Shown: positions 7,903 through 32,051 of the stretch, piece by piece
Numbering within the stretch: the first letter of the stretch is position 1
Layout: every line of letters begins with the position of its first letter
Assembly: GCA_028279065.1 (NCBI GenBank)
Contig: JANQSY010000090.1
Location: forward strand, 1 to 34,464
Origin: Cytophagales bacterium
GTDB lineage: Bacteria; Bacteroidota; Bacteroidia; Cytophagales; CCMP332
Reading direction: 5' to 3'
Length of the DNA: 34,464 nt
The notes under the pieces: model-generated
The model's input: only the letters and a program-made list of their open reading frames with translations
Told to the model about the DNA's origin: nothing
The model's database searches: none
Translations under genes and position numbers: made by a program

Positions 7903-8805
7903 ATGAAAAGATACCTATTTACCCTGATTTCAACCCTTTTTGTTTTATCCGCCTATGCTCAGACCCAAATTCCTTTAAGCGTAGACAAGGATAATTCCAT
8001 CTTTTCCGAAGATGTGAACAAAAGTCTTGGGGCAGGAGAGTCTCTTTTTGTAGGAAGAACTAATCAGGGTAATGATAGAAGAGCGCTTATCAAGTTTGAT
8101 TTTAGCTCGATTCCTGCGGGTTCAACTGTTGTTGGCGCCAGTTTATCCATGACGGCTACCATTGGCCAAGGTGGTTCAAGGACTATAAATATTCATGCTG
8201 TGGACAAGGATTGGGGAGAAGGAACATCCAATAATACTTCAAATCCAGGCCAAGGGGGTACCGCTACCTCAGCAGATTGTACTTGGGGCTATACTTTTTG
8301 GTCTCAAACCATGTGGACCAGCCCAGGAGGAGATTTTGGACCATCATTGGCATCGGCAAGTGTTGATGGTTCAGGAACTTATACCTGGTCCTCCCAAAAT
8401 CTTGACGACCTTATTCAGGATATTGTTGACGGGACCATATCCAATCATGGTTTCATTCTTATTGGTGATGAGAGCACCAACCAAACAGCAAAAAGATTTA
8501 ATTCAAGGGAAAGCACGGGGTCCGGCCCTGATCTAACTGTAACAGTTTCTACAACAACTTCTCTTTCTTCAGTTGTACGCGATCCAAAATTCACTATAAG
8601 CCCAAATCCGGTTTTTAATTCCTTCAAGTTGAATGGTAATATCAAGGTCGAATCCCTGGAGATCTACGACCTCAAAGGAAGCAGAGTGCTAGTTTTGAAT
8701 CCCTACTTTGAAAATCATAACGTTAAGGAATTGAACCGGGGAATTTACCTTCTGAAGATCCAGGGAGAAGGATATTCTGTTACGAAAAAACTTATAAAGA
8801 AGTAG
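7903..8805 (+). CDS. Secreted DNRLRE (CBM96-like) protein with type IX secretion tail
   Basis: A 300-residue exported protein. A Sec signal peptide (RYLFTLISTLFVLSAYA, cleavage near residue 19) is followed by a DNRLRE/CBM96-like beta-sandwich module (about 20-215) with family landmarks SLFVGRTNQGNDRRALIKFDFSSIPAG, ASLSMT, DWGEG and NHGFILIGDESTNQTAKRFNSRE. The last about 80 residues form a T9SS type A sorting domain: FTISPNPVFNSFKL, SLEIYDLKGSRVL and GIYLLKIQGEGYSVTKKLIKK. It should cross the outer membrane by the Por system and be anchored or released; CBM96 modules have been linked to polysaccharide binding, but the ligand here is unknown. It is a single gene on plus, ending one base before the convergent permease stop. 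Confidence 0.9.
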   Translation: MKRYLFTLISTLFVLSAYAQTQIPLSVDKDNSIFSEDVNKSLGAGESLFVGRTNQGNDRRALIKFDFSSIPAGSTVVGASLSMTATIGQGGSRTINIHAVDKDWGEGTSNNTSNPGQGGTATSADCTWGYTFWSQTMWTSPGGDFGPSLASASVDGSGTYTWSSQNLDDLIQDIVDGTISNHGFILIGDESTNQTAKRFNSRESTGSGPDLTVTVSTTTSLSSVVRDPKFTISPNPVFNSFKLNGNIKVESLEIYDLKGSRVLVLNPYFENHNVKELNRGIYLLKIQGEGYSVTKKLIKK

Positions 8806-8806
8806 G

Positions 8807-11041
8807 CTATTTGATATCCTTCCTGGTGTTGGTGTTGACGAATAGGATATCGCCAACCTCTTCATAACCTTTAAACACCTCGGATTCCTCATGCCGGACC
8901 ATTTCGCTTCTTAAACCCATAATTGTAAGGTCCGCATCTTTAGAGATATTATTGATCAGGGTCTTTGAGTCTTCGTTTTCCTGTTTGGGGATCATTCTGA
9001 TGTTTGAAGCCGAGATAGGAATTCTACCAGCCTTGATCAATCCCAACAACTGCTCTTTTTGGTTATCCAATTCTTTTACGGGGAAAAGTGAAAAGATTTT
9101 TATGTTGCCATTTTTCCAATCAGGATGACCGATAATTATGTAGGCCATCAGGATCATCAGATTAGCGTTTTGAAAATCATTGGGAGTTATCCAAAGATGG
9201 ATCTCGCTTTTCATGCCGAATCTCCTCTTTGAGCTTCCGAGGATCAGCACATCGAAATCACTCGACTTGGTGAGTTGGTAATTCTCAACTATAGCGTCCA
9301 GCATTTCAGGTTCATCCTTGGAATATTCAAAAAGGATGGTGTTATTCTCCTTTCCCGAAACTCCCGGAAGCTGGATCACCTGTGCAATGGCGGAGGTATA
9401 TGAGGGACTGATCAAAGTATCCAGATAGACGTTGTTCTTTGAGGCTTCGGCCATCTTAATCAGCCTGCCAAGAGCTTCTTTGGACTCATTGTGGGTTTCC
9501 TTTGACAGGTATCCATCGATCAGGTGAATGAAGGTCCCAAATCCATAACGATAGCTTATCCATCCCAGCAGTTCAAAGGCCGCAACTCTTTTGAAGCTGT
9601 CCTTGGAGATGCAGACCACCGAGGGCCTCCAGTTCTCCTTGTCAGGATCCTTATCCACTTTTTGTAAAAAGACCTGTAGCACTCTACTAAGTTGGAAGAT
9701 GACGCCTTGAAAGATCCCGGCAAGCCCTTCCTTTTCATCTTTCGATCTTGAAATGATGAGGTATAAAATTGTCATCATGATCAGGGCAAGGAATGCGTAT
9801 TTTGCGTTGATCTGGATCATCAGTATCAAACACATGACAGCTCCGAGAAGAGAGAAATACCAGCGGCTTTTGAAAGAAGGGCGATAGGAGGGATCTGATG
9901 CGAAATGCTCGAAAAAGGAGATCATGCAGATCGATCCATAGGTCAGCATGAAGAACATCGTGATAATACCAGCTACTGTATTCACATCTCCTATGATCAC
10001 GAAGATCAATGCAATCCCTGTGGTGATCATGGTGGCATTATTTGGTTCGTTGGTTTTACCCTTACCCCTTGATAGCCAATAGCTTACCCCTCTAAATGGG
10101 AGATTTTTATCTCCTGCAAGGGCCTGAAGTGTCCTTGGAGCTACCATCATTGAACCTAGGGCTGAAGAAATGGTGGCTGCTGCCAAACCGATAGGTATTA
10201 TGGGTCCCCAAATAGCAATATCGCTCATGATCAATTGCTTGTCGTGGAGATCCTCCGGACTTGCCGAGAGGTATAGTTTTAGAGCGATCGCCATATATAC
10301 CAACATTCCAAAAATGGTGGCTGCAAATGTTCCCTTGGGAATGGCATTCCTTGGATCCTTCAGATCTCCTGATAGACCTACTCCTGCTGTCATTCCGGTA
10401 AATGCCGGGAAGCAGATCGCAAAGACAAGAAAGAAGGAGTTGGGGTTGTCTACCTTTATTGTAAATGAAAAGTCGTCAGCGAGGTAAGGGTTGGTTCCAG
10501 TACCCAGAAAAAAAAGCAATAATGCTACTCCAAGGATAGCGACCACCACGTAGAGGGTTTTGACCCCAAGAGAGGCCCCCTTGCTGATCATCAGAAAGAA
10601 GAGCAGGACGAGGAACGGAATGGAAATGATCCGATAATCGTAGACGTAAATTGCGTATTTCTCTAAAAGCCATTGGAAGACAGGTTCAAATGCCTGCGCA
10701 AAGGCAATTATGTAAAACGCTACTGAGATCGCCTGAGAAAGGTAAAGGGCCGTGCCGATTGCTCCACCAACGGTCAGGCCGAATGATCTTGAAATGATAA
10801 AATATTCACCTCCTCCCTCTACTTTTTGATTCGTTGCTATTTCTGCAATGGCCATTGCTGTGGGGATGGTGACCATATGACCTAAAATGATTATTGCCCA
10901 TGCTCCCAAAAGGCCGACATTTCCAACTGCATAACCAAACCTCAGGAATAGGATGGCGCCAAGGATAGTGGAGATAGCTGTGAAAAAAACAGCGGGGGTC
11001 CCAAAGCCTTTTCGGCTATCGATTAACCTTTGAGTGGCCAT
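8807..11041 (-). CDS. SLC12-type (APC superfamily) amino acid or cation-chloride permease
   Basis: A 744-residue membrane protein. The N-terminal about 430 residues hold some 12 hydrophobic segments, starting with the GTPAVFFTAISTILGAILFLRFGYAVGN block typical of cation-chloride cotransporter (SLC12)-like APC permeases, then EGGGEYFIISRSFG and FPAFTGMTAGVGLSGDLKDPRNAIPKGT. The C-terminal about 300 residues are a cytosolic domain (VVCISKDSFKRVAAFELLGWISYRYGFGTF, FDVLILGSSKRRFG) like the SLC12 C-terminal region. Substrate cannot be inferred. Its ATG shares one base with the smc stop (TAATG), so translation is probably coupled to smc; it ends the long minus-strand gene series. Confidence 0.85.
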   Translation of the reverse strand: MATQRLIDSRKGFGTPAVFFTAISTILGAILFLRFGYAVGNVGLLGAWAIIILGHMVTIPTAMAIAEIATNQKVEGGGEYFIISRSFGLTVGGAIGTALYLSQAISVAFYIIAFAQAFEPVFQWLLEKYAIYVYDYRIISIPFLVLLFFLMISKGASLGVKTLYVVVAILGVALLLFFLGTGTNPYLADDFSFTIKVDNPNSFFLVFAICFPAFTGMTAGVGLSGDLKDPRNAIPKGTFAATIFGMLVYMAIALKLYLSASPEDLHDKQLIMSDIAIWGPIIPIGLAAATISSALGSMMVAPRTLQALAGDKNLPFRGVSYWLSRGKGKTNEPNNATMITTGIALIFVIIGDVNTVAGIITMFFMLTYGSICMISFFEHFASDPSYRPSFKSRWYFSLLGAVMCLILMIQINAKYAFLALIMMTILYLIISRSKDEKEGLAGIFQGVIFQLSRVLQVFLQKVDKDPDKENWRPSVVCISKDSFKRVAAFELLGWISYRYGFGTFIHLIDGYLSKETHNESKEALGRLIKMAEASKNNVYLDTLISPSYTSAIAQVIQLPGVSGKENNTILFEYSKDEPEMLDAIVENYQLTKSSDFDVLILGSSKRRFGMKSEIHLWITPNDFQNANLMILMAYIIIGHPDWKNGNIKIFSLFPVKELDNQKEQLLGLIKAGRIPISASNIRMIPKQENEDSKTLINNISKDADLTIMGLRSEMVRHEESEVFKGYEEVGDILFVNTNTRKDIK

Positions 11042-25399: not shown

Positions 25400-27802
25400 A
25401 TGAGTCAGGAAATAAAAAACATAGACAACCAAGAGGGTAGGAGTTCAAATCGGGACCTCCTGAAACTTTGGGGAAAGGTTCTGGATTCCTGGCCTCTTAT
25501 TCTTTCCTTTTTTCTTTTGGCAGTGGTTACTGCTGTTTTATTTAACAGATATACCACACCGATCTACCTGGTTAAAGGCTCTTTGGTTAAAACCAGGGAT
25601 GAAGGACAGAGCGATTTGCTTTTCGGAAGCGAGAGATCAAGTTTTTTTAGGTCAGATGCTTCCGACGTTCAAAGGGCCATAAGGATCTTAGGGTCAAGGG
25701 AATATATTCTCCAAACACTAGAAGAACTTGATTTTGAGATCGCATATTTCCTTAAAGGGGAGGTAAAGATCACTGAGGTTTATCCGAATGATAACTTTTC
25801 AGTGGAGCTCGATACTGGGTCAACAAATGTCCCCTATGGTGTTCCAATTGAATTGATCCATGAAGCAGGAAATAGTTTTTTCTTTCTTACCACAGAGGAT
25901 ACCCGATTCAATAGCAGATATCTAGATGGCAAACAGTTTGAGTTCGGAGAATGGATTTCGATAAACGGGTGCCGACTTAGGATCCAGGCCAATTCAAAAT
26001 TCCTCAAGCAAGAGAAATCCGATGAAATCCAGTTTGTCTTCCGACCTAAGGAAAGCCTGATAAAAGAATACAAAAATCTTGTTCGTGTACGGGTTGATGA
26101 TGAAACACCTAACATTTTTAATTTTTCCATTTATTCCCGAACCCCGCTGAAGGATCAACTTTTTCTTGAGAAGTTGATGACCATTGTCAAAAGAAATAAC
26201 CTTCATGAAAAAAATCGAGAGGCCGAAAACTCCCTGAAATTTATTGATGGTCAACTAAGATTGATGCTTGACACATTAAGTTATTTCCAGGGTGAGATCG
26301 ATGACTACAAGGTTAAAAACCGGGACTTTGGGCAAGCGAATATCGAGATCCTGGAAATCATCAGGGAACTTGAGCATGATAAGTCTCTGATCCTTATTGA
26401 AAACAATTATCTCGATTACCTGGAAACTTATGTCAGAGAAAAAAGGGAAAGTGAAATCTTTGCTCCGGTGGTCCTAGGTGTTGAAAATATCCTCTTAAAT
26501 GAGCTTGTTCTCGAGTACGTAAAATTCAAAAAAGAGAATAAAGTATTCTTGAACAGTGAAAACCAACAGAACCCCTTGGTTTCTATTGAAGATGCCCGAC
26601 TCACAAGGATCGAAGAAAACATCCTTGAAAATGTTTCCAACATGAGGATCGATAATGCCTCCAAGGTTGATTTCCTCGATTCAAAATTGAGATTCTACAA
26701 TAAATCACTTTACAGCTTGCAGGATGAAAAAAGAGCTATCTATGATATTATGCAATGGAACTCCCTTGTAGAGCAGATGGTCCAATTGTTATTGCAGAAG
26801 CGAACAGAGATAAGCGTGTCCATGTCTTCAACCGAATCGGATTTTGAGGTGTTGGATCCGTCGATAACTGAGTCAAAACCATACATTCCAAATAGGGAAA
26901 GGAATCTGATAATAGGACTATTGATAGGTTTGGGATTGCCAATTCTGGCCCTTTATGGTTTAGTATTGATCAACACCAAGGTGTCTATAAAGGAAGAACT
27001 CACAGAATTGACACAAATCCCGATCCTTGGGGTTGTAGGGCACAGCAACCATAGGAATTCCATGGTGGTCCAGGAAAAGCCCAAATCTTCCATTGCAGAA
27101 TCTTTTCGGTTAATTCGTTCCAATATTCATTTTTTGATCTCAGATTATGATGTGCCGGTTATTTTGTTTACCTCCTCGATTTCCGGAGAAGGAAAAACAT
27201 TTTGCTCTACAAATCTTGCATTTGCATTTGCTCAGATGGAAAAGAAGGTGATCCTAATTGGAGGTGATATGAGAAGGCCCAAGATCTTCAAGGATTTTCC
27301 TTCAGTCAATGAGTTGGGGCTAAGTGATTATCTGGCTGGAGGATTATCCAAGGAAAAACTGATCCAGGAATCGAGTTTTCCTTATTTGGACCTCATTTCA
27401 AGCGGATCGATTCCACCCAATCCAAGTGAATTATTGATGAATTCCCGGCTCGATGGTCTTATAGAAGAATTAAAGAAGGAATATGACGTTGTGATTGTTG
27501 ATTCACCGCCTAAAGGCCTGGTTACGGATGCTACTATTTGGATGAGAGTTTCTGACCTGGTTGTTTTTCTTGTACGCCAAGGAGTTACTGAAAAGGAAAT
27601 GATTAAAAACCTCGATGAGGAATATTCCAAAAAGAAAATTAATCACGTGTCCATAATCTTTAATGATATAAAGCGGAATATCCTTGGGAAATCCAACGGT
27701 TATGGATATGGTTATGGCTATGGATACGGCTATGGCTATGGGTATTATGAGGAGGATAAGGTCAAAAAGGGCTTTCTTTCAAAAATCAATCCCTTTGCAT
27801 AA
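25400..27802 (+). CDS. Wzc-like polysaccharide co-polymerase and tyrosine autokinase
   Basis: An 800-residue PCP-2a type protein. TM1 (WPLILSFFLLAVVTAVLF, about 30-48) starts the Wzz-like periplasmic part, which has long helical segments (about 260-480), and TM2 (LIIGLLIGLGLPILALYGLVLI, about 503-525) ends it. The cytoplasmic BY-kinase domain has Walker A SISGEGKT (about 593-600), Walker A' VILIGGDMRRPK (about 617-628) and Walker B VVIVDSPP (about 697-704). The C-terminal tail contains eight Gly-Tyr units plus one Tyr (27698-27748), the expected autophosphorylation cluster. Such kinases control polymer length and export by cycles of phosphorylation; no partner phosphatase gene is visible here. 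It follows the Wza-like gene by 12 bases and touches the WlbA-like gene. Confidence 0.93.
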   Translation: MSQEIKNIDNQEGRSSNRDLLKLWGKVLDSWPLILSFFLLAVVTAVLFNRYTTPIYLVKGSLVKTRDEGQSDLLFGSERSSFFRSDASDVQRAIRILGSREYILQTLEELDFEIAYFLKGEVKITEVYPNDNFSVELDTGSTNVPYGVPIELIHEAGNSFFFLTTEDTRFNSRYLDGKQFEFGEWISINGCRLRIQANSKFLKQEKSDEIQFVFRPKESLIKEYKNLVRVRVDDETPNIFNFSIYSRTPLKDQLFLEKLMTIVKRNNLHEKNREAENSLKFIDGQLRLMLDTLSYFQGEIDDYKVKNRDFGQANIEILEIIRELEHDKSLILIENNYLDYLETYVREKRESEIFAPVVLGVENILLNELVLEYVKFKKENKVFLNSENQQNPLVSIEDARLTRIEENILENVSNMRIDNASKVDFLDSKLRFYNKSLYSLQDEKRAIYDIMQWNSLVEQMVQLLLQKRTEISVSMSSTESDFEVLDPSITESKPYIPNRERNLIIGLLIGLGLPILALYGLVLINTKVSIKEELTELTQIPILGVVGHSNHRNSMVVQEKPKSSIAESFRLIRSNIHFLISDYDVPVILFTSSISGEGKTFCSTNLAFAFAQMEKKVILIGGDMRRPKIFKDFPSVNELGLSDYLAGGLSKEKLIQESSFPYLDLISSGSIPPNPSELLMNSRLDGLIEELKKEYDVVIVDSPPKGLVTDATIWMRVSDLVVFLVRQGVTEKEMIKNLDEEYSKKKINHVSIIFNDIKRNILGKSNGYGYGYGYGYGYGYGYYEEDKVKKGFLSKINPFA
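27698..27748 (+). repeat. Gly-Tyr hexanucleotide repeat in the kinase tail
   Basis: Eight tandem GGN-TAY units followed by one more TAT encode alternating Gly and Tyr near the C terminus of the Wzc-like kinase. Gly codons vary (GGT, GGA, GGC, GGG) and one Tyr is TAC. The repeat is therefore imperfect at DNA level, which suggests the protein pattern is what is kept. Confidence 0.9.
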
Positions 27803-28773: not shown

Positions 28774-29262
28774 TTGGACTGGTTCGTTTTTTATACCAAG
28801 GCCAGATGGGAAAAAAAAGTTAACGACTATTTAATCCGTTTTGGGTATGAGCCCTTCTTGCCCCTTGTCACGGAAGTTCATCAATGGTCCGATCGGAAAA
28901 AGAAGGTAGTTGTGCCCTTGTTCCGGTCCTATATTTTCGTTCAATCATCTGAGGCTAAGATCCCTGATATTTTAAAGGTCCCAGGAATTTCCTGGTCCAT
29001 AAGAGTAGAAGGCAAACCTGCAATTCTTTCTCAAAAGGATAAGGAAAAACTCGATCGTGTTCTACAGACTGGATATACAGTTGAAGAACATGTGGGAGAA
29101 GCGGTTACAATTGGTGATAAAGTCGAAATCATAGAGGGGCCATTAACTGGGTTGAATGCAGAAGTACTTAAAAGCGACAGATCTTCGGTTTTGGTTAGAA
29201 TTCAGTCAATAGACAAAAATATTCGCCTATTAATACCCCCAGAACTGTTAAAGAAAAATTAA
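28774..29262 (+). CDS. UpxY-like transcription antiterminator (NusG paralogue)
   Basis: A 162-residue specialised NusG-like protein. The N-terminal NGN domain has DWFVFYTKARWEKKVNDYL, FLPLVTEVHQWSDRKKKVVVPLFRSYIFV and ILKVPGISWSIRVEGKPAIL. A C-terminal KOW domain follows (VTIGDKVEIIEGPLTGLNAEVLK, about 107-129). In Bacteroides, UpxY proteins bind RNA polymerase early in a capsule operon and prevent premature termination. Here the gene stands after wza-wzc-wlbA rather than first in the locus. The start is TTG at 28774, 11 bases after wlbA; DWFV/WYV is the normal N-terminal sequence of the family, and no ATG fits. Confidence 0.88.
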   Translation: MDWFVFYTKARWEKKVNDYLIRFGYEPFLPLVTEVHQWSDRKKKVVVPLFRSYIFVQSSEAKIPDILKVPGISWSIRVEGKPAILSQKDKEKLDRVLQTGYTVEEHVGEAVTIGDKVEIIEGPLTGLNAEVLKSDRSSVLVRIQSIDKNIRLLIPPELLKKN

Positions 29263-29267
29263 TGTAT

Positions 29268-29307
29268 GAGTAATTTTTTTACTCAATAAATGTTCCTAAT
29301 TTTACTC
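29268..29307. promoter_or_regulatory. Inverted repeat and direct repeats before the winged-helix gene
   Basis: TGAGTAA (29267-29273) and TTACTCA (29279-29285) form 7-base arms around five T. The octamer TTTTACTC occurs at 29277-29284 and again at 29300-29307, 23 bases apart (about two helical turns). The sites sit in the 62 bases between the UpxY stop and the winged-helix start, so they may be an operator for that protein; the hairpin could also end or pause the UpxY transcript. Confidence 0.3.
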
Positions 29308-29324
29308 GACTTAGTTCGAAGAAT

Positions 29325-29858
29325 TTGCTAGACCACCTCATTACCTCAAAGACCAGGATCAAATTATTGGTCAAATTCTTTAGCAATAAGAACTCCAGTG
29401 CATATCTGAGGAGCTTGGCTTCAGAATTTGGAGAATCCACGAATTCAATAAGAGTTGAGCTTAACCGGCTTTCAGACGCGGGATATTTGAAAGCAAAGGA
29501 ATCCGGACGAACGATCCTTTATCAGGCAAATGATAGGCATCCCATATTCTCTGAATTGCAAAATGTTGTCAGAAAGTATTTGGGACTTGATAAGATTGTC
29601 TCTGATCTGGTTCAAAAACTAGGAGATGTACATCTGGCTTTCATTACCGGGGATTATGCGAGGGGTAAGGATTCAGGTATTATTGATCTGATACTGGTTG
29701 GCAAGGTCGATATAAAGAGACTTCAATCTCTGGCCAGAAAAGTAGAAAAGCTTATTCATCGAAAGATCAGATATATGGTCTTGTCAGATGAAGAATATAT
29801 AGAAATGGAATCAAAGCTGGATCCCAGTCACGCGATCTGGCTTTGGCGTAGCGAGTAG
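29325..29858 (+). CDS. Winged-helix regulator with degenerate nucleotidyltransferase domain
   Basis: A 177-residue two-domain protein. Residues 1-70 form an ArsR-like winged helix (SKTRIKLLVKFFSN, YLRSLASEFGESTNSIRVELNRLSDAGYLKA, a beta-hairpin wing to ILYQAND). Residues about 100-165 resemble a minimal nucleotidyltransferase domain. The signature is altered: ITGDYARGKDSGIIDLILVG has GD in place of GS at 109-110, and only one Asp (121) where active enzymes have D-x-D. It is therefore probably a DNA-binding regulator with a non-catalytic or ligand-binding domain. The start is TTG at 29325; no earlier start fits. It sits between the antiterminator and the ABC exporter, so control of the polysaccharide locus is the likely role (inference). 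Confidence 0.7.
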   Translation: MLDHLITSKTRIKLLVKFFSNKNSSAYLRSLASEFGESTNSIRVELNRLSDAGYLKAKESGRTILYQANDRHPIFSELQNVVRKYLGLDKIVSDLVQKLGDVHLAFITGDYARGKDSGIIDLILVGKVDIKRLQSLARKVEKLIHRKIRYMVLSDEEYIEMESKLDPSHAIWLWRSE

Positions 29859-29883: not shown

Positions 29884-29910
29884 CTTGGTCCCTTTATGGG
29901 ACTGAGGAGG
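29884..29910 (+). promoter_or_regulatory. Hairpin overlapping a strong Shine-Dalgarno before wzm
   Basis: CTTGGTCCC (29884-29892) can pair with GGGACTGAG (29898-29906) around the loop TTTAT: nine pairs, two of them G-U. The right arm runs into GAGGAGG (29904-29910), a near-perfect Shine-Dalgarno 7 bases before the GTG at 29918. Such a strong site is rare in Bacteroidota and decides the GTG start. The hairpin would hide part of it, so it may control translation. Confidence 0.4.
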
Positions 29911-29917
29911 CGGAGCT

Positions 29918-30751
29918 GTGCAAAAGCAAGAAGAAATAACGACGGTAATACGACCTCAAAAGGGATGGGTTCCGATTGATATACCTGAGATAATCAAGTA
30001 TAGAGATTTGCTTTATTTTCTTGTAGTTCGAGGGATCAAGGCAAAATATGCCCAATCAATTCTTGGGGTAGGATGGGCAGTGCTTCAACCTCTATTCACC
30101 ACCGTGGTGTTTACTGTTGTTTTTGGGAATCTGGCAAAGGTTGGATCTGATGGGGTCCCCTATGTGATCTTTAGTTTTACCGCCATGGTGCCCTGGAATT
30201 ATTTTTCAGGAACGCTGACTGATTCTTCAAATAGTCTGGTTGCCAACGCTTCAATGATAACCAAAGTATACTTTCCAAGAGTGGTTTTACCTTTAGCATC
30301 CATTTTTTCCCGCCTTTTAGATTTTCTGATCGGGTTTATTGCGGTTGGGGGCTTTATGATATATTATCAATTTATTCCCTCTCTGAACGCTTTGTTTATA
30401 CCTCTCCTATTAATTATTCTATTGCTGACATCAATTGGATTGGGTTTGATTCTATCCTCAATGGCCGTTCAGTATCGGGATGTAAAACATGTAATGACTT
30501 TTTTGACCTCCCTGCTAATGTATGCAGCTCCGGTAGTTTATCCTGCTTCTCTTGTTCCTGAGAAATGGATTTTCCTGTATTCTTTAAATCCTATGGTGGG
30601 TGTTATTGAAGGCTTCAGAAGTGCATTGTTGGGTACCCAACCAATGCCTTGGGAAAGTATTCTGTGGGGAGGACTTGTTGCAATTATGATTTTCGTATTT
30701 GGAGCATATTACTTTAAAAAAATGGAAAGGGTTTTTGCCGATGTTGCCTGA
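29918..30751 (+). CDS. wzm: ABC-2 type polysaccharide exporter, permease (Wzm-like)
   Basis: A 277-residue inner-membrane protein with about six transmembrane segments. It opens with a cytosolic stretch including PQKGWVPIDIPEIIKYRDLLYFLVVRGIKAKYAQSILGVGWAVLQPL, the amphipathic entry typical of Wzm/TagG/KpsM permeases. Helices such as TVVFTVVFGNLA, FIAVGGFMIYYQF and LLLIILLLTSIGLGLIL follow, with the cytosolic AVQYRDVKHV motif. It should move a lipid-linked glycan across the inner membrane with the Wzt ATPase, whose start overlaps its end by 11 bases. The start is GTG, preceded by an unusually good ribosome-binding site. Confidence 0.93.
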   Translation: MQKQEEITTVIRPQKGWVPIDIPEIIKYRDLLYFLVVRGIKAKYAQSILGVGWAVLQPLFTTVVFTVVFGNLAKVGSDGVPYVIFSFTAMVPWNYFSGTLTDSSNSLVANASMITKVYFPRVVLPLASIFSRLLDFLIGFIAVGGFMIYYQFIPSLNALFIPLLLIILLLTSIGLGLILSSMAVQYRDVKHVMTFLTSLLMYAAPVVYPASLVPEKWIFLYSLNPMVGVIEGFRSALLGTQPMPWESILWGGLVAIMIFVFGAYYFKKMERVFADVA

Positions 30752-32051
30752 AAAGTCTTCAAACAGAAACCTGGCTATCGAAGTATTGAAGTTAAGCAAG
30801 CGGTATAGGATTGGACTGGCAGAAGAAAAACAGGAAACCCTTGCCCTTCAGCTAGTTCACCTTGTGAAAGCCCCAATTAGGAACTTCTTAAAGTTGCGAT
30901 CCCTTGGCAGATTTAGAAGTGAAGATGAAAGTGTTTTTTGGGCGCTTAAAGACATAGACTTTGAAGTTAAAAAGGGTGAAGTTCTTGGAATTATCGGCCA
31001 TAATGGAGCTGGAAAAAGCACCCTTCTTAAAATTTTATCCAGGATTACTGAACCAACAAAAGGAGAGATCAGGATCAGGGGGAGGGTTTCATCCCTTTTG
31101 GAAGTTGGAACAGGGTTTCATCCTGATCTGACAGGTAGGGAGAATGTTTATATGAATGGAACTATTCTGGGAATGACCCGTAAGGAGATAGATAGAAAAT
31201 TTGAAGAAATACATTCGTTCTCCGGAATTGGAAAATATATCGATACGCCGGTAAAAAGATACTCCTCTGGAATGAGGGTTAGACTTGCATTTTCGGTAGC
31301 CGCACACTTGGAACCCGAGATTTTGATCATTGACGAAGTGCTCGCAGTCGGAGATGCTGAGTTTCAAAAAAAATGCTTAGGAAAAATGGAAGATGTAGCA
31401 GGCCAGGGGAGAACAGTTCTTTTTGTAAGCCATAATATGGCGGCTGTAGAGCGCATTTGCTCTAGGGCTATTCTACTGTCCTCGGGAAAAATAGTTTTTG
31501 AGGGATCTCCGGCTGAAACAATAAATTTTTATTTATCCGGAGGGAAAGCAGAATCAAAATGGGGAAAAATTCCAAGTCATTATCCAAGGAACTCGTATCA
31601 CACAGGTATTTGCAAAATTGAAAGCATTGAATTATCCCAAAAATCCCTGAGAGATGGATATCGGTTTAGATTTGGCGAAAAAATATCTTTCGATTTAATT
31701 GTTAACAGTTCAGAAGAGCTTGGAGTAATTGTTACCCTTTCATTTATAGATCAGACTAACACACCAATTTCCTTCTCTGCATCCAATGAAATGAACCGGC
31801 AACATTTGTTTGATTTAGTTGAAGGAAAAAATAGGATCAATATTGAAGTGGACCAAACATTGCTTCCAGGAGATTATTCTATTGGCCTCAACATTTGGGA
31901 TCCTAACGGATATCCATATGACTCGATTCAATCATTTGGAAGTCTAAGTATTGAAAAGTTTGGAAAAGGAGGAAGAGGCTATCCTTGGGGAAAGAACCTT
32001 GGATTTGTAGCCTTTCAAATTGGCATAAAAAATGAATCATATGAAACTTGA
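30741..32051 (+). CDS. wzt: ABC-2 type polysaccharide exporter, ATPase (Wzt-like) with C-terminal glycan-binding domain
   Basis: About 436 residues from the ATG at 30741 (MLPEKSSNRNLAIEVL); an ATG at 30699 would overlap the permease gene by 53 bases and adds residues unlike the family. The N-terminal ABC domain has Walker A GHNGAGKST (86-94), signature YSSGMRVRLAF, Walker B ILIIDEVLAVGD and switch His in VSHNM. The region from about residue 260 is a Wzt-C-like beta-sandwich (FGEKISFDLIVNSSEELGVIVTLSFID, LLPGDYSIGLNIWDPNGYPYD), which in O9a-type systems recognises the capped end of the glycan. Its presence suggests end-recognition before export, fitting the methyltransferases in the locus. Its end overlaps the epimerase start by 11 or 20 bases. 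Confidence 0.93.
   Translation: MLPEKSSNRNLAIEVLKLSKRYRIGLAEEKQETLALQLVHLVKAPIRNFLKLRSLGRFRSEDESVFWALKDIDFEVKKGEVLGIIGHNGAGKSTLLKILSRITEPTKGEIRIRGRVSSLLEVGTGFHPDLTGRENVYMNGTILGMTRKEIDRKFEEIHSFSGIGKYIDTPVKRYSSGMRVRLAFSVAAHLEPEILIIDEVLAVGDAEFQKKCLGKMEDVAGQGRTVLFVSHNMAAVERICSRAILLSSGKIVFEGSPAETINFYLSGGKAESKWGKIPSHYPRNSYHTGICKIESIELSQKSLRDGYRFRFGEKISFDLIVNSSEELGVIVTLSFIDQTNTPISFSASNEMNRQHLFDLVEGKNRINIEVDQTLLPGDYSIGLNIWDPNGYPYDSIQSFGSLSIEKFGKGGRGYPWGKNLGFVAFQIGIKNESYET

Follow-up and report, generated by a model that had tools for sequence, protein, structure and literature searches.

Which role can a protein play that joins a DNA-binding domain to an enzyme-like domain in the middle of a polysaccharide locus? 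The question is raised by an ORF at positions 29325–29858 (plus strand, TTG start, 177 amino acids) of the 34,464-nucleotide stretch analysed here, which we call the window. The locus contains, in this order, genes for a Wza-type export protein, a Wzc-type kinase, a Gfo/Idh oxidoreductase, a UpxY-family antiterminator (28774–29262, plus strand) and the wHTH-MNT protein itself. They are followed by an exporter, of which the ABC-2 polysaccharide permease (29918–30751, plus strand, GTG start) is the first gene 3′ of the ORF and the Wzt-type ATPase (30699–32051, plus strand) the second, and then by genes for an epimerase and a DegT aminotransferase. The initial annotation had placed the gene between a UpxY-like antiterminator and the exporter, and profile searches agree: the antiterminator scored 124.9 bits against NF033644, whose cut-off is 100, and the exporter genes matched ABC-2 and Wzt families. 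Towards its C-terminus the Wzc-type kinase (25400–27802) has an extended GYGYGYGY run that may serve as a cluster for tyrosine phosphorylation. Judging from sequence comparisons, the product of 29325–29858 is probably an operator-binding local autorepressor of the polysaccharide operon, a reading to which we give a probability of roughly 0.78.

The protein was modelled with AlphaFold2 from 60 sequences (pLDDT 90.3, pTM 0.76). Residues 1–90 (29325–29594, plus strand) form a winged helix like that of ArsR-type repressors, with 3jth (Z 11.1) and 6o8k (Z 11.0) as matches in fold comparison and 6uvu in Foldseek (E 1.2e-4). The ArsR/SmtB proteins CzrA, SmtB, SqrR and HlyU have this fold in common with the window protein (Z about 10–11), which differs from them in reaching 20.1 bits against NF033788 (HTH_metalloreg), below its cut-off of 55, and in carrying an extra MNT-fold domain. 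The latter comprises about residues 85–177 (29577–29855, plus strand) according to the model, fold comparison and profile alignment. In fold comparison, about residues 79–177 resemble the MNT domains of HI0073 (1no5, Z 9.8) and of the HEPN-MNT antitoxin 8xeo (Z 9.7); Foldseek added the antitoxin structure 6m6u (E 4.4e-4), and profile searches matched 2rff (E 9.6e-5 and 5.7e-4). The initial annotation had described an ArsR-like domain joined to a minimal nucleotidyltransferase-like domain and had proposed the comparison with MNT folds; model and matches bear this description out. No convincing entry spanning both domains was present among the matches listed by the fold searches. The predicted recognition helix, residues 39–51, goes with the near-invariant motif EFxESTNxIRxELN, and given the winged-helix fold this helix would have a recognition role. 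Searched by itself, the regulator sequence did not reach the Pfam thresholds (for PaaX 21.9 bits, where 24.8 are required), gave no Pfam match to a UpxZ family at E 1, and had only weak matches in PHROGs (best E 9.4e-5).

The C-terminal domain has the Pol-beta-type MNT fold without the GS and D-x-D pair of an active MNT/Pol-beta nucleotidyltransferase. The degenerate site GDYARGKDSGIIDL occupies residues 109–122 (29649–29690, plus strand), where GS is changed to GD and no acidic residue stands two positions before Asp121. Two alignments were compared, whose rows partly represent the same lineages: a larger one of 60 sequences (the window protein and 59 of the 75 usable named relatives) and a smaller one of 38 of 39 loci (L022 omitted). 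Asp110, the GD in place of GS, is present in 55 of 60 rows of the larger alignment and 32 of 38 rows of the smaller, and an intact GS in a single row of each. Residue 119, which corresponds to the first Asp of D-x-D in the 2rff profile alignments, is acidic in none of the 60 and none of the 38. The first Asp may alternatively be placed at residue 118 or in a gap, the loop being shorter in this family; residue 118 is D or E in 1/60 and 4/38 rows, and in these rows the distance from the acidic residue to the kept Asp is three positions instead of two. The second acidic residue is retained as D or E in all 60 rows of the larger alignment and in 35 of 38 of the smaller, the other three having Q or V. 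Whichever placement is chosen, the canonical D-x-D pair is, by alignment, missing in nearly all members. The change is family-wide, which points to lost catalysis in the whole family, beyond the window copy. Asp116 was considered as a relocated catalytic residue and rejected: it is kept in 58/60 rows, and equals the loop Asp before the D-x-D pair in the 2rff alignment. Replacement of the GS serine by Asp and loss of the first Asp argue against canonical NTP binding, and ordinary NTP binding by the pocket looks unlikely, which bears on the initial suggestion that the protein may sense a nucleotide or nucleotide sugar. The absent first Asp and the exchange of GS for GD, both noticed initially in the window protein, are thus features of the branch, and no intact D-x-D site turned up in its aligned members.

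The gene is single-copy in its own genome. Matches at E 1e-3 or better were found in 11 of 59 related genomes and, phylum-wide, in 34 of 198, the own genome being counted in both. A scan of genome contigs listed at least 591 stretches, 585 of those listed encoding a relative, and the named relatives are the best-scoring 80 of these; a scan with the single regulator sequence matched a pattern in 71 stretches and returned no relatives. After removal of four duplicates (L099, L108, L140, L160), 121 non-identical loci were retained, including the very weak relative L083, scored as a miss below. The next gene (+1) could be tallied in 103 of them, 11 loci having no ORF in range and seven an opposite ORF. 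It encodes a Wza-type export protein in 16 loci, a nucleotide-sugar dehydrogenase in 13, an ABC-2 exporter in 13, a NusG/UpxY protein in 12, an epimerase in 11 and a DegT protein in four. A sum of the tallies for the 25 commonest of the 59 families at this position, which may overlap, gives glycan genes or UpxY in as many as 69 of the 103 loci. The homologues therefore do not lie mostly outside glycan loci, an outcome that would have spoken against the role first suggested.

The pairing of the two domains has a precedent. PDC-M05A of PADLOC, which belongs to the putative defence pair PDC-M05, is co-linear with the window protein over residues 4–161 of 177 (98.2 bits, E 1.3e-28), and the part of PMC12988326 available to us pairs the PDC-M05A nucleotidyltransferase with a HEPN-domain protein. 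The initial annotation had linked the gene to no described scheme. This still applies to the glycan role, as the literature searched gave no description of wHTH-MNT proteins controlling glycan loci through an operator; it does not apply to the domain pairing. The PDC-M05A match also raises an alternative, in which an active or residual MNT enzyme, or an antitoxin, modifies or neutralises its toxin and DNA binding only autoregulates the toxin–antitoxin (TA) pair. Relatives with intact sites lend it some support. One genome labelled Atribacteria carries a dead-site regulator gene together with two wHTH-MNT genes with intact GS and SDID; one of these (L276) has a HEPN gene (PF05168) 57 bp downstream, and the other (L264), 31% identical to the window protein over 153 amino acids, is followed by a gene that matches AbiEi_2. 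Three plasmid relatives (L296–L298) also have intact sites and an overlapping second gene of about 145 amino acids, for which Pfam gave no match. Other inverted repeats lie upstream of these three genes (the best within 150 bp, with no chance control).

The window protein differs from these relatives and from the MNT antitoxins in several respects. The five intact relatives keep GS...SDxD, whereas the window branch is without the catalytic pair. A small second gene directly follows four of the five, whereas the dead-site branch lies mostly in glycan operons. Besides its altered site, the window protein has a fused winged helix and no HEPN neighbour, the adjoining genes being UpxY and the ABC-2 permease, so that the partner expected of a PDC-M05 system is missing there. 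HEPN families are absent from the 25 commonest of the 59 next-gene families; a single-sequence search found no HEPN near the 121 genes, a weak test that missed an HEPN-like gene seen in L048. In that locus, at about 8795–9452 and some 470 bp past the operator, a small MNT gene (GS/SDID) and the HEPN-like gene, recognised by eye, are divergently arranged. With residue 119 never acidic and glycan genes prevailing next to the regulator, we consider a TA pair at the window locus very unlikely. As the intact-site relatives occur in TA-like pairs, the dead-site family seems to be a domesticated offshoot of TA-like wHTH-MNT proteins without catalytic activity, and origin from a TA-type autoregulator that lost catalysis and partner appears the simplest reading. 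An autorepressor of the glycan operon would need an operator, and here too the branches differ: no TGAGTA site was found within 400 bp of the five intact relatives, whereas the dead-site branch has a fixed one.

This predicted operator is a 19-letter palindrome, YGAGTA-N7-TACTCR, that recurs 5′ of wHTH-MNT genes and had gone unnoticed in the initial annotation, outside whose coordinates it lies. In the window it reads TGAGTA-N7-TACTCA at 29267–29285, beginning just after the UpxY gene, which ends 4 bases before it. A putative additional half-site, TACTCG, stands between this site and the TTG start, at 29303–29308; extra half-sites of this kind were seen by eye in L014, L017 and L035. With at most one mismatch, the site was present within 1500 bp upstream in 112 of the 121 loci (perfect in 85), against seven sites in the remaining 1,255,306 bp of the same loci; these statistics ignore kinship, and the loci are not phylogenetically independent. 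Within 150 bp upstream and at up to two mismatches, 99 of 121 loci had a site, 69 of them perfect. Among 1083 other ORFs in these loci 23 had one, and dinucleotide shuffles gave 1.06 per 121 on average. Ten other ORFs had a site with at most one mismatch. In eight of these cases an oppositely directed ORF had picked up the site of the regulator; the remaining two were in L044, ahead of UpxY, and in L053, ahead of an ABC-2 gene. All 100 sites examined, preselected at two mismatches or fewer, have G at positions 2 and 4 and C at positions 16 and 18. Nine loci had no site at one mismatch or fewer, four of them (L109, L113, L125, L133) having one at two mismatches. A near site is missing in 21 loci; in 16 of these the site lies further off, 150–1474 bp upstream, in some cases past a gene. 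Spacers other than N7 gave nothing convincing in the loci without a near site; N5 matches with one mismatch occurred in L080 and L111, both with perfect N7 sites further upstream. The record labels of loci with a site at one mismatch or fewer, which may be wrong for metagenome bins, comprise Bacteroidota, Synergistota, Atribacterota, Bacillota, Marinimicrobia, Kapabacteria, Spirochaetota, Myxococcota and Caldithrix. On these comparisons, protein and predicted operator form a pair common to loci of many bacterial phyla, mostly beside glycan genes. The conserved palindrome and the glycan neighbours give computational support to the earlier suggestion that the protein regulates its own polysaccharide locus, through predicted binding.

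Whole genomes showed the same association. The window site is the only perfect one in its own genome, where the reversed control gave none. Each of the 13 regulator copies in the 11 carrying genomes (of 59) has a perfect site within 700 bp upstream, and these genomes contain 24 perfect sites where the reversed pattern has five; in the 48 genomes that lack the regulator the counts are 26 and 64, no excess. A genome-wide regulon in the own genome found no support: the other perfect 10-base cores, three in number, all fall within long ORFs, and cores with one mismatch are not enriched (61 against 136 in the reversed control). Two genomes with two regulator copies each (G035 and G049) have extra perfect sites, in L239 (5653), L241 (5831), L240 (5427) and L242 (5384). 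The one in L241 lies before an operon for a UDP-sugar dehydrogenase and Wza, identified by Pfam, and beside a Wzi gene, with L239 alike by eye; further extra sites in these genomes lie 280–390 bp from a cytidylyltransferase-like gene, and one in L243, inside a long ORF, is probably due to chance. The regulon may thus extend past the own operon in G035 and G049, an extension not visible in the genome of the window.

The position of the palindrome relative to promoter elements is informative about its action. In the 60 bp before the site, 14 of 16 exact TTGACA hexamers lie 10–13 bp from the palindrome, so that a −10 box 17 bp further falls inside it. The sequence TAnnTTTG, which we take to be the Bacteroidota −7 box, occurs inside the palindrome in 30 of 112 loci on the sense strand and in none on the antisense strand. 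Readable boxes are limited to these 16 exact TTGACA and 30 TAnnTTTG among the 112 loci; where they can be read, the operator appears mostly to cover the −10 or −7 box. In the window itself the boxes are weak and a promoter scan found none at the operator, the centre of which, TAATTTTT, is one base off TAnnTTTG. ArsR/SmtB repressors typically autoregulate from a palindrome over the promoter. A conserved operator over the gene's own promoter, as expected of an autorepressor, was found here in 112 of 121 loci, with the boxes readable in part of them. Operator and start codon are anywhere between 0 and more than 1 kb apart in the different loci, which, together with a wing and an MNT domain that could contact polymerase, would suit a ligand-responsive activator or dual regulator instead of a plain repressor. 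The readable boxes put the site on the −10/−7 region, which is where steric repressors commonly bind, and we regard activation as unlikely. In five Flavobacteriales records (L157, L165, L167, L174 and L176) the operator directly abuts the ATG, so that the transcript may be leaderless.

A second element was found downstream of the operator. The ops-like sequence GGCGGAGCTGTG (29909–29920, plus strand) overlaps the GTG start of the exporter permease and is a candidate UpxY loading site; it resembles the ops element of RfaH. In the 1.43 Mb of the 121 loci, 25 copies of the pattern GGCGRAGCYRTG are in sense and a single one in antisense orientation, and its reversed form is absent. The element is present in the window, L041, L063, L100, L105, L118, L131, L153 and others, often in the form TGGGACTGAGGA-GGCGRAGCTGTG. 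The own genome has four places with the element, the window's included. All 22 loci with an ops-like element near the regulator have it downstream of the operator. For a possible hairpin upstream of it, the mean stem was 5.1, against 3.6 in shuffles (29 sites, five of them stemless). In 30 UpxY loci without the regulator nearby, the element lies 3′ of UpxY in four, each time in sense. UpxY/UpxZ and RfaH–ops serve the same kind of operon as that of the window, which has a UpxY neighbour and an ops-like element; these systems act on elongation, whereas the window regulator is predicted to act on initiation. Possibly, then, the regulator gates initiation and UpxY gates elongation on one transcript. 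The available portions of PMC7593976 and PMC7819879 name no defined element for UpxY.

The nearness of UpxY also raises another explanation of the palindrome, in which it forms a hairpin in RNA or serves to recruit UpxY and the regulator gene simply accompanies it. UpxY is present in the fetched region of 19 of 45 loci and directly beside the regulator in 17 of these (six upstream, 11 downstream), and UpxY acts in 5′ leaders according to the part of PMC7819879 available. The palindrome follows the regulator gene instead. It was found in 19 of 19 loci with UpxY and is kept in 23 of 26 without it. The control set comprised the 30 best-scoring UpxY loci without a regulator within 1.5 kb, although at least two of the genomes (G035, G049) carry a regulator elsewhere; within 400 bp upstream none of the 30 had a site at one mismatch or fewer, and four had one at two mismatches. 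These two results led us to reject the palindrome as a UpxY target, a function that the separate ops-like element suits better. The outer bases of the palindrome arms change independently of each other (20 of 112 sites combine C with A; Fisher p 0.33), which favours a double-stranded protein site over an RNA hairpin; the hairpin was rejected on this lack of covariation. Taken as a whole, this explanation seems to us highly improbable.

The autorepressor that we favour would work as follows. A homodimer, suggested by the ArsR fold and the symmetry of the site, would grip the palindrome YGAGTA-N7-TACTCR through its winged helices. With the operator over the promoter core, the bound dimer would block RNA polymerase at a promoter serving the regulator gene together with the downstream exporter and sugar genes. 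The MNT fold, without catalysis, would be the signal-input or dimer part, and a ligand or partner would free the operator from the repressor. The transcript would then reach the ops-like element, where UpxY could load and carry the polymerase through the long operon. Bacillus PurR consists of a wHTH and a non-catalytic phosphoribosyltransferase domain. It is comparable in function, with a non-catalytic enzyme fold acting as the sensor for a repressor of the winged-helix type; this sensor has a different enzyme fold from MNT, and no homology is claimed for it.

To our knowledge, the switching of capsules and exopolysaccharides outside the well-studied Bacteroides is poorly understood. We offer tentatively, at odds short of even, a wider proposal for the family. 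A TA-type wHTH-MNT protein that lost catalysis and partner may have become a gatekeeper devoted to surface-polysaccharide loci and widespread across phyla, with TGAGTA as its operator. The dead pocket would be a new ligand sensor, perhaps for a sugar-phosphate or nucleotide-sugar precursor, in a two-gate circuit with UpxY. The family, so far without a name, comes with a predicted site of sufficient precision to list targets across many phyla, which makes the role directly testable. If the reading is true, an antitoxin-type enzyme fold would have been turned into a transcription-factor domain.
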